Shown here piece by piece: positions 11,140-24,090 of a stretch of 39,561 nucleotides of DNA; within the stretch, counting starts at the first letter, position 1, and every line of letters begins with the position of its first letter. The position numbers and the translations under genes were made by a program. The stretch is from Clostridiales bacterium (GTDB taxonomy: Bacteria; Bacillota; Clostridia; Oscillospirales; Oscillospiraceae). The notes beneath the pieces were generated by a model. That model made no database searches. It was not told where the DNA came from and worked only from the letters and a program-made list of their open reading frames with translations. The stretch spans positions 2,137 through 41,697 of the forward strand of contig JAAVHV010000011.1 of NCBI GenBank assembly GCA_014799505.1. The letters are read 5' to 3'.

Positions 11140-11414
11140 AATCAAAACGCCCCCTGTCCCATTCAGGACAGAGGGCGAAGGTTCGCGGTACCACCTCTGT
11201 TTTGCCGCTTCCTCGCGAAAGCGGCCTCAGGGAGTCCCCAACAGGACCCCGGCGCTGTACCGGGCGCACCCGTCCGACCCTACTGGGGAGCGGTAAACGT
11301 CCCGTTCAGGCGGCTGCTCCGAGGGGTATTCGCCAACGGTTCCTGTCCCCCTTCCACCAAACGGGGGCTCTCTGGGCAGGAGGGCCTTTGGTTACTGATC
11401 CTCATCCTCGCATT
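11140..11414 (-). ncRNA. T-box riboswitch, tyrosine specifier
   Basis: This leader senses uncharged tRNA by pairing the anticodon with a specifier codon and the tRNA 3' end with the antiterminator bulge. The T-box sequence AGAGGTGGTACCGCG is at 11198-11184. Upstream, stem I shows the AGAG bulge and a GGTGGAAG terminal loop near 11360, and the specifier loop reads GAA-UAC at 11331-11326, giving UAC for tyrosine. The terminator CGCCCTCTGTCC / GGGACAGGGGGCG (11177-11148) is followed by TTTTGATT. The UGGU bulge suits an A discriminator base. Downstream genes include tyrS, which agrees with the specifier. Confidence 0.93.
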
Positions 11415-11420
11415 GACAGG

Positions 11421-23726: not shown

Positions 23727-23755
23727 ATTGTATCATAAAAAGAGCGGGAGCGCAA
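23727..23755 (-). promoter_or_regulatory. Extended -10 promoter for ilvD
   Basis: The -10 TACAAT (23732-23727) is preceded by TGA (extended -10 TGn); the -35 TTGCGC (23755-23750) is 17 bases away and weak. Confidence 0.5.
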
Positions 23756-23783
23756 TGGGAAATCACTTGATTCCCATGCGCTC
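23737..23783 (-). terminator. Intrinsic terminator at the left end of the small antisense module
   Basis: On the minus strand GAGCGCATGGGAA pairs with TTCCCATTGCGCTC (one bulge) and is followed by CCGCTCTTTTTATG. It would stop leftward transcription coming through the ilvC/antisense region before the ilvD promoter. Confidence 0.65.
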
Positions 23784-23791
23784 CGCATTGA

Positions 23792-23820
23792 TTGACAAAT
23801 TATTCCCAGGATGCTATGAT
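23792..23820 (+). promoter_or_regulatory. Consensus sigma-A promoter for the 27-codon ORF
   Basis: TTGACA (23792-23797) and TATGAT (23815-23820) are separated by exactly 17 bases; predicted start near 23827. It is among the strongest promoter matches in the window. Confidence 0.8.
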
Positions 23821-23883
23821 AAGGGCGGCGCTGTCGTGATAACGGTAGGCGGTTGGCTACGCTTCCCGAAAGGGGGTGTACAT

Positions 23884-23967
23884 ATGCCGATTACTTTGAC
23901 ATTTCACATCCGTGAATGGACTGTGACAATTCAAGTAAAAAGCAGAAACCGCCACTCTGCCAAGTGA
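23884..23967 (+). CDS. 27-residue peptide, candidate type I toxin
   Basis: I do not recognise this peptide. It starts at ATG 23884 behind AAAGGGGGTG (23869-23878), one base from a perfect Shine-Dalgarno. That site is locked in a small hairpin: TTCCC (23863-23867), loop GAAA, GGGGG (23872-23876). Residues alternate hydrophobic and polar in two runs, ITLTFHI (3-9) and WTVTIQVK (12-19), joined by Arg-Glu, as in an amphipathic beta-hairpin. The tail KSRNRHSAK is basic. There is no transmembrane helix, unlike most known type I toxins. The frame can be read 52 codons further upstream, but that part crosses the promoter and lacks a ribosome site. An antisense RNA overlaps its 3' end. The gene call rests on promoter, ribosome site and architecture, not homology. 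Confidence 0.6.
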   Translation: MPITLTFHIREWTVTIQVKSRNRHSAK

Positions 23968-24030
23968 CGGTTTCTTAGAACTATCTAAGCAATCTTCCAG
24001 GGGCTAACCGCTTACCGGCAGCGCCTTTAT
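23937..24030 (-). ncRNA. Candidate antisense RNA (type I antitoxin-like), about 95 nt
   Basis: A consensus promoter at 24064-24037 would start a leftward RNA near 24030. It crosses the 3' untranslated region of the 27-codon ORF and its last codons. It ends at an intrinsic terminator: AAACCGTCACT (23973-23963), loop, AGTGGCGGTTT (23956-23946), then CTGCTTTTTAC. An internal hairpin CTTAGA / TCTAAG lies near 23973-23990. Its first 30 bases resemble the sense mRNA leader, so it would compete with that leader for the mRNA 3' end. The terminator may also serve ilvC transcripts. No expression evidence is available. Confidence 0.65.
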
Positions 24031-24036
24031 GTTTTT

Positions 24037-24064
24037 ATTATACACGCTCGGGGCGCTTTGTCAA
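24037..24064 (-). promoter_or_regulatory. Consensus promoter for the antisense RNA
   Basis: TTGACA (24064-24059) and TATAAT (24042-24037), both perfect hexamers, are 16 bases apart. The -35 lies within the loop and arm of the hairpin at 24049-24079. Confidence 0.75.
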
Positions 24065-24090
24065 GTACAAAGCGCCCCGGCATTTTATGC
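24049..24090. terminator. Hairpin between ilvC and the antisense module
   Basis: A perfect 12-bp stem (CGGGGCGCTTTG / CAAAGCGCCCCG) with loop TCAAGTA. T-rich sequence follows only in the plus direction (GCATTTTATGCTTTT), so it may end the rightward mRNA; it has no T run in the ilvC direction. Confidence 0.55.

Follow-up and report, generated by a model that had tools for sequence, protein, structure and literature searches.

The gap between ilvC and ilvD in the genome of a Clostridiales bacterium (GenBank assembly GCA_014799505.1) contains a module of ~270 bases, bounded by two sigma-A promoters that face each other, at positions 23792–24064 of the 39,561-nucleotide stretch of DNA that was analyzed (hereafter ‘the window’). 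A sequence-only reading of this locus had proposed a type I toxin–antitoxin-like module, raising the question of what the module encodes, how it came to be there and how far it resembles such a system. We consider it most probable (at odds of roughly three in four) that it is a peptide gene under antisense regulation, present in many copies and capable of insertion, and that it works in the manner of a type I toxin–antitoxin module. A type I-like arrangement is supported by our comparisons, which fall short of proving a toxin–antitoxin system. Five elements are established at the level of sequence: a peptide gene under selection, a convergent antisense promoter with its terminator, a covarying helix between the 5′ and 3′ parts of the mRNA, a hairpin holding the Shine–Dalgarno (SD) sequence, and a spacer that is replaced between recent duplicates, often along with the terminator loop.

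The ilv operon of the window runs leftwards (as judged from its list of open reading frames, with gene names assigned by reading the translations), and the facing promoters, the SD hairpin, the 27-codon ORF and the leftward terminator all lie inside the ilvC–ilvD gap (Table 1). Both promoters were found where the sequence-only reading had placed them, as were a near-perfect SD within a small hairpin, the ORF that follows it, and the elements of a leftward RNA that would overlap the end of that ORF and stop at a T-run terminator. As judged from its convergent promoter and its terminator, the predicted antisense RNA is nested within the 3′ third of the mRNA. A 1.2-kb stretch contained four promoter-like sites (versus a mean of 0.7 in shuffled sequence) and four terminator-like sites (versus 1.0). 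The sense stretch 23826–23990 and the antisense stretch 24031–23935 each fold more stably than all 200 of their shuffles (z = −2.95 and −3.24, respectively).

Table 1. Positions of the module and neighboring features within the window
Feature	Position	Strand	Basis or remark
Hairpin of the ilvC–ilvD gap	23737–23783		Left of the module; present in relatives without the module
Sense (peptide mRNA) promoter, TTGACA-17-TATGAT	23792–23820	+	Score 11/12
Arm A (5′ arm of long-range helix, mRNA leader)	23827–23858	+	Pairs with 24001–24025
SD hairpin	23859–23882	+	SD is AAAGGGGGTG at 23869–23878; folding and pair counts
27-codon ORF, MPITLTFHIREWTVTIQVKSRNRHSAK	23884–23967	+	In-frame purifying selection; predicted cationic amphipathic beta-hairpin
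Predicted antisense RNA, ~90 nt (5′ hairpin, spacer, terminator)	23938–24030	−	Promoter and terminator positions
Antisense RNA terminator (hairpin, then T-run)	23944–23975	−	Arm and loop within the final ORF codons and stop codon
Hypervariable spacer, common to mRNA 3′ UTR and antisense RNA	23976–24000	.	Proposed recognition region
Arm A′ (3′ arm of long-range helix, 3′ UTR)	24001–24025	+	Complementary to the 5′ portion of the antisense RNA
Antisense promoter, TTGACA-16-TATAAT	24037–24064	−	Score 12/12
Possible sense RNA terminator	24048–24080	+	Stem spans the antisense −35 element; by eye also in L005 and L008

Some part of the ilvC–ilvD locus was matched in 41 of 42 genomes of the genus (the source genome included). 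Three loci (L221, L222 and L223) are empty sites, where the module is absent and the left hairpin and a short stretch lie between ilvD and ilvC. These sites support insertion of the module, and with it the earlier suggestion that it splits two genes of one pathway as an inserted element would. Since the left hairpin is found at these same module-less sites, it is part of the ilvC–ilvD gap and not of the module; a left terminator was thereby ruled out as a module component, and the earlier claim that it insulates the module on that side was not upheld. At L218 the gap holds the module together with further sequence containing a small ORF, and at L227 and L233 it holds other inserts. Because the inserts differ between genomes, the gap beside the hairpin looks like an insertion hot spot. 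The hairpin is also present in L227, the gap of L220 and L230 contains a partial duplicate of the ilvC 3′ end, and the small ORF of L218 and L233, found beside the module or alone, reads as helix-turn-helix-like.

A peptide search (E ≤ 0.01) found at least three copies of the module in the source genome. Of the 199 genomes in a search of relatives, 37 gave peptide matches (counting the source genome); single genomes had as many as six, and several matches formed tandem pairs spaced ~300 bp apart. A peptide profile matched 23 of 394 genomes in a sample of the order (E ≤ 0.001), 1 of 391 in a sample of the class and 5 of 398 in a sample of the phylum (both at E ≤ 1e-6), each count including the source genome. 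A DNA pattern built on the antisense terminator matched 15 loci on viral contigs and at least 120 on genome contigs; the genome-contig matches listed came from Oscillospiraceae, Ruminococcaceae, Lachnospiraceae, Clostridia and similar, and the genera among the matches listed include Gemmiger, Oscillibacter, Pseudoflavonifractor, Evtepia and Dysosmobacter. Evtepia gabavorous KLE1738 and Gemmiger formicilis are cultured hosts among these matches. Vescimonas fastidiosa MM35, also in culture, has five matches (one is partial) on a single replicon record, and at one of these that was examined the PLSDB gene table, which is incomplete, gives no gene. The family that we examined comprises 214 distinct copies from Oscillospiraceae, Lachnospiraceae and relatives. 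In two of the 15 viral contigs that were examined for context, the module is flanked in one phage contig by an XkdN-like tail protein gene on one side and tail protein/sheath genes on the other (L077, 4149–4365, minus strand), and in the second it lies near an anti-repressor gene (L087).

The sequence-only reading had not recognized the peptide family, and neither did the databases: the window peptide matched no family of Pfam, NCBIfam, PHROGs or PADLOC at E ≤ 10, and the PDB gave no match better than E = 8. When 31 members were compared with Pfam (E ≤ 10), six families were matched weakly (best E = 0.0073, in one member). Pfam contains Fst, Ldr and Hok models, none of which was among the six. 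In NCBIfam the same 31 members matched YrzI alone (five members, best E = 0.017). The peptides share with YrzI small proteins a short FTITI-like stretch of 11 aligned residues; membership in that family (TIGR02413, PF09501) was rejected at 13.5 bits against a cut-off of 47.05. Rfam, which contains RatA, yielded nothing at gathering score in the module region, the only antitoxin match being ohsC at 18.2 bits of 50. Searches of open-licence papers by peptide string and by topic did not find the family. By these comparisons the module belongs to none of the families tested (Fst/Ldr, Hok, YrzI and the Rfam antitoxins), and it appears to represent an unnamed family: no curated cut-off was reached in Rfam, in NCBIfam or, so far as the comparisons show, in Pfam.

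The peptide genes of the family encode 25–30 amino acids. In two length classes of 75 and 62 sequences, chosen by a loose peptide pattern and analyzed without the ORF end that overlaps the terminator, dN/dS was 0.20 and 0.086 in frame, and 0.89–3.06 in shifted frames. For 123 sequences from loci fetched with the DNA pattern (copies of at least 18 HMM bits), the corresponding values were 0.10 in frame versus 1.7 and 3.4 in the shifted frames. A small protein gene (<60 amino acids) is a general property of type I systems, and these substitution patterns indicate that the one found here is truly coding. Where the ORF overlaps the antisense terminator, an NRH motif has the same CGC and CAC codons in all 106 aligned copies; the search pattern demanded them in 54 of these copies, and they are likewise invariant in the other 52 of 52. 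Frozen synonymous positions in this overlap are expected if the opposite strand is read too.

The peptide is predicted to form a cationic, amphipathic beta-hairpin. Across 169 variants the hydrophobic moment at the beta angle (170 degrees) was 0.66 versus 0.33 when shuffled, while that at the helix angle (100 degrees) was 0.26 versus 0.36. The mean net charge was +4.7 in 138 variants trimmed at the start codon, and none of these 138 contained a 19-residue window of hydropathy above 1.6 (maximum 1.58). By this hydropathy measure, the peptide would lack the hydrophobic alpha-helical transmembrane segment of membrane-acting type I toxins, a point against our preferred explanation. A modest AlphaFold2 model of a 30-residue relative (rather than of the window peptide), computed with 20 aligned members, placed strands at residues 3–7 and 14–18, with a pLDDT of 82–83 over residues 1–20, an overall value of 73 and a pTM of 0.30.

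Promoters were scored in 59 copies, a set that was reached from 62 unique copies by retaining the 60 with full flanks and then dropping one repeated ORF. The sense promoter scored at least 10/12 in 42 of the 59 (mean 10.0, shuffled 7.3) and the antisense promoter in 57 (mean 11.7, shuffled 7.7), the two exceptions below 10 being L025 and L041. Among loci fetched by pattern, 109 copies had a good ORF score, and the antisense promoter of 104 of these reached at least 10/12 (the other 5 fell below); that score was reached by 11 of 366 control windows. Conservation of the ATG–stop frame and of the antisense promoter among homologues, on which the sequence-only reading had made its proposal depend, was thus found on both counts. 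Chance can be set aside as the source of these elements, given that 57 of the 59 copies keep the antisense promoter and that only the actual frame of the ORF shows purifying selection.

The antisense terminator stem was paired in 97.6% of cells over 106 copies, with 117 doubly changed cells versus 33.9 when shuffled; the search pattern fixed 8 of the 12 stem pairs in 54 of these 106 alignment rows, and in the 52 copies that were not fetched by the terminator pattern the stem was 97.8% paired, with 66 doubly changed cells. As judged from these elements, the module includes an antisense gene with a promoter and a terminator of its own, as type I systems do. At one position pair of the stem (A2 columns 224 and 240), all 106 copies, including the 52 obtained by other means than the terminator pattern, have a C·A mismatch on the sense strand, equivalent to a G·U pair on the antisense strand. 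A further 25 pattern matches lacked a good ORF score (by eye, 20 were truncated and 5 strongly diverged or frameshifted), and the antisense promoter was kept in 20 of the 25, where the pattern itself requires an intact terminator. Several truncated copies (L190, L150, L164, L128, L107 and others) have no peptide start and keep a near-perfect antisense promoter. Such truncated copies may be solitary antisense (antitoxin-like) genes.

Beyond what had been noticed in the first reading, the 5′ leader of the mRNA is complementary to its own 3′ UTR. We examined this pairing between arms A and A′ in an alignment drawn from 141 modules, of which 115 remained after thinning and a requirement for an antisense promoter of at least 10/12, and 106 were used (nine modules, L130 twice, L163, L168, L174, L175, L180, L187 and L201, were left out by hand). 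The helix comprises 24 pairs, which were picked on this same alignment after being sighted in single copies, a procedure that favors them; 89.5% of 2516 cells were paired, as compared to 33–51% when the arms were slid by 1–3 columns. Doubly changed cells numbered 221 versus 59.0 in shuffled alignments, and covariation was 0.363 versus 0.208, values that were reached in 0 of 500 shuffles in either case. Together with the occurrence in 37 of 199 genomes, these compensatory changes bear out the earlier expectation of a multicopy, patchily distributed element. In a 59 × 59 comparison, cognate A:A′ duplexes had a mean energy of −52.7 kcal/mol versus −38.9 for non-cognate ones, and thermodynamic folding recovered the core of the helix in 94 of 106 sequences. 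In the nine modules left out of the alignment, cognate arms bound better than the non-cognate mean in eight. L174 is a counter-example (its cognate arms reach −25.5 kcal/mol, and 99 of 106 non-cognate arms do better), and L168 gives a weak result, 19 of the 106 non-cognate arms binding better.

A strand test, which depends less on how the pairs were picked, further indicated that the pairing takes place in the sense RNA, over and above any inverted repeat in the DNA. The helix contained 332 G·U cells versus 51 A·C cells (188 versus 49 once two columns that were mostly G·U had been removed), and the excess was found in both halves of the data (161 versus 17, and 171 versus 34); an A·C on the sense strand is a G·U on the other strand. 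Since the complement of A′ lies in the antisense RNA, that RNA would start with a copy of the 5′ arm of the mRNA. The hairpin around the SD was also conserved as a structure, with 555 of the 632 cells of its six stem pairs being standard pairs in the 106 copies. Release of the SD through loss of A′ was considered and found no support in folding, which keeps the SD paired (0.93 without A′ and 0.90 with it). Because the SD is predicted to be paired in either case, the long helix may hide a standby site or protect the ends of the RNA rather than cover the SD. Control of translation by the long-range helix is left unexplained by this predicted pairing, which counts against our preferred explanation. 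By eye, some copies (L007, L033, L073, L080 and L114) have an extra small hairpin at the start of the leader; the two tandem copies of L033 have different versions of this stem, with pairing still possible.

The spacer between the terminator and A′ is 19–37 nt long and has an entropy of 1.77 bits. The stretch upstream of the leader arm is similarly variable (1.80 bits), and the flanking elements have values of 0.4–0.9, the lowest being that of the terminator, which is depressed by the search pattern. A structured spacer was rejected (mean folding z of −0.07 for the sense and 0.06 for the antisense strand). The tandem copies of L121 have unlike spacers despite an identical ORF and A′ and an almost identical leader; alignments of L247, L033, L120 and L002/L011 exhibit the same replacement.

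We compared co-resident copies, of which the 214 distinct copies provided 135 pairs in 37 genomes or contigs (six were dropped at contig edges). Twelve of the 135 qualified as recent (identity of at least 0.95 in the ORF body and 0.80 in the leader), and one of these (L172), in which the spacer stretch has been lost from one copy, was excluded from the spacer count, leaving 11 comparable pairs. In 10 of the 11 the spacers were 0.58–0.76 identical, versus a baseline of 0.56 (sd 0.07) for unrelated spacers, with the leader and ORF body of the same pairs at 0.80–1.00. The terminator loop differed in 8 of the 11. The eleventh pair (L263/L030 of genome G087, an assembly of many contigs in which both copies are near contig ends) has an identical spacer and a common loop as well, which rules out any strict rule under which the recognition regions of co-resident copies always differ. 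Over all 135 co-resident pairs, five share the spacer at 0.8 or above and only the G087 pair also has the same loop, counts from which collapsed repeats in assemblies could conceal further pairs with a common spacer. Copies in different genomes can retain their spacers (identity of 0.95–1.0 in 5 of 11 pairs). The stretch between the −35 and −10 elements of the antisense promoter should be free to drift; in the six recent pairs in which it is at least 0.82 identical (W01, L091, G468, G087, G379 and L121), five of the six recognition spacers are 0.58–0.68 identical. We infer that this pattern does not stem from simple drift and that replacement at the pairing site is either favored by selection or brought about by some mechanism, an indication that each copy has a private recognition region.

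We propose that these elements work together as follows. Both the sense and the antisense transcript would exist, and the full-length mRNA, closed by the A:A′ helix and the SD hairpin, would be poorly translated. The strong antisense promoter would supply an antisense RNA with a 5′ end that copies arm A. That RNA would contact the mRNA of its own module by way of the terminator loop and the single-stranded spacer, would then invade A′, and would thereby silence or destroy the message. If the antisense RNA were lost, the cationic beta-hairpin peptide would be made and would harm the cell, its target most simply being the membrane or another anionic structure. With a private recognition region in each copy, the copies would not silence one another. 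A more specific proposal, which we advance tentatively and at somewhat less than even odds, is that the modules constitute a distinct class of type I toxin–antitoxin systems of gut Oscillospiraceae and Lachnospiraceae, with beta-hairpin toxins, with antitoxin recognition cassettes that are replaced wholesale after duplication (generating many orthogonal pairs on an invariant scaffold), and with truncated, antisense-only copies that serve as solitary antidotes.

The alternative that fares best, though we judge it unlikely, is an antisense-controlled peptide that is not toxic to its own cell, such as a secreted antimicrobial, a signalling peptide or a regulator, for which the antisense RNA would control dose. 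The charge and predicted amphipathic beta-hairpin of the peptide fit this explanation, as that shape is known for some antimicrobial peptides. However, the module has no evident operon partner in the contexts examined, which are mutually unrelated (ilvC–ilvD, LysR–nadE and phage tail genes), and the occluded SD, the near-perfect antisense promoter and the private recognition regions fit a product that needs to stay off. A selfish RNA repeat or MITE-like element, with its inverted flanks (promoters and arms) acting at the DNA level and the ORF incidental, would account for the inverted arms, the tandem and truncated copies, and presence or absence at a single site; that explanation appears very improbable, given an ORF under in-frame purifying selection, a G·U excess over A·C that signifies RNA pairing on one strand, and the lack of any target-site duplication noticed in the sites read (by reading, rather than systematically). 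An antisense copy-control or incompatibility element, left from a replicon together with a leader peptide, is just as improbable: plasmid control systems do have variable antisense recognition regions and leader peptides, but no replication gene follows the module in the window (by reading) or is found among the five features around a Vescimonas copy, and the peptide gene is itself the conserved product.

For the antisense-regulated, type I-like peptide gene that we favor, the nearest relatives by working principle, judged by analogy, would be AapA/IsoA (for the 5′–3′ helix), TxpA/RatA, BsrG and YonT (for the 3′ overlap) and ZorO/OrzO (for copy-specific recognition). A 5′–3′ long-range helix of like kind has also been described for hok. 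In TxpA/RatA and BsrG/SR4 the antisense RNA overlaps the 3′ end of the toxin mRNA, and excerpts on YonT/SR6 describe the same; the predicted antisense RNA of the module shares this arrangement.

Excerpts on AapA/IsoA of Helicobacter describe a small peptide mRNA with a stable 5′–3′ long-distance interaction and local hairpins on the SD, a cis-antisense RNA, and several co-resident loci, with antisense RNAs that are unable to take the place of IsoA3 (PMC6733600). The module resembles the system so described in its long-range helix, SD hairpin, cis-antisense RNA and co-resident loci, a likeness of working principle; unlike AapA/IsoA, the module has its antisense RNA opposite the 3′ third of the mRNA, with a 5′ end that is a copy of the mRNA 5′ arm. 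The same source describes the SD of full-length AapA3 mRNA as trapped by an anti-SD in the long-distance interaction (PMC6733600), whereas that of the module is held by a local hairpin; and where AapA1 is described in an excerpt as having an alpha-helical transmembrane segment (PMC8309996), the peptide of the module is a predicted beta-hairpin.

According to excerpts of a further source, many of the TxpA/RatA, BsrG/SR4, YonT/SR6 and Clostridioides difficile type I systems reside in prophages and their toxins have 28–60 amino acids and a transmembrane domain (PMC6563280). The module differs from the toxins so described in giving no transmembrane helix signal, and from their antitoxins in having no Rfam match at gathering score. 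The par locus (Fst/RNA II), as excerpted, has convergent promoters, a small peptide with a charged C-terminus and intramolecular SD sequestration, all of which the module shares, together with direct repeats (DRa/DRb) and a shared bidirectional terminator (PMC7472228). In contrast, the repeats of the module are inverted, and a terminator scan found a T-run on the antisense side only. The earlier comparison of the layout to par, txpA/ratA and bsrG/SR4 therefore holds for the type I-like convergent arrangement and the 3′ overlap; it does not extend to par itself (inverted repeats and an unshared terminator) or to the peptide, a predicted beta-hairpin.

For the duplicated loci ZorO/OrzO and ZorP/OrzP, excerpts describe small RNAs that are distinguished by a single-stranded variable region (V1) of 3 nt in the pairing site, expressed from a divergent gene and pairing over 18 nt (PMC3919570). 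The copy-specific recognition of that system would be shared by the module, and V1 as described is a small precedent for the replacement of its spacer; unlike ZorO/OrzO, the module has ~30 nt replaced, often along with the terminator loop, in an antisense RNA that overlaps its target.

Gut Oscillospiraceae and Lachnospiraceae thus appear to harbor an unnamed, multicopy family of antisense-controlled peptides, and if these peptides are toxic they would form a class unlike the alpha-helical membrane toxins of type I systems. Recent duplicates that differ mostly where the two RNAs should recognize each other are what would be expected of a toxin and a private RNA antidote. Near-identical modules that differ mostly in the spacer represent a natural experiment on how private an antisense RNA is to its own target, and this natural series makes orthogonality within multicopy toxin–antitoxin families directly testable.

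Elsewhere in the window, a T-box leader (Rfam RF00230, 106.7 bits) was found on the minus strand at 11168–11417. It precedes, on the same strand, a small ORF, an acetyltransferase-like ORF and a tyrosyl-tRNA synthetase-like ORF (labels assigned by reading).
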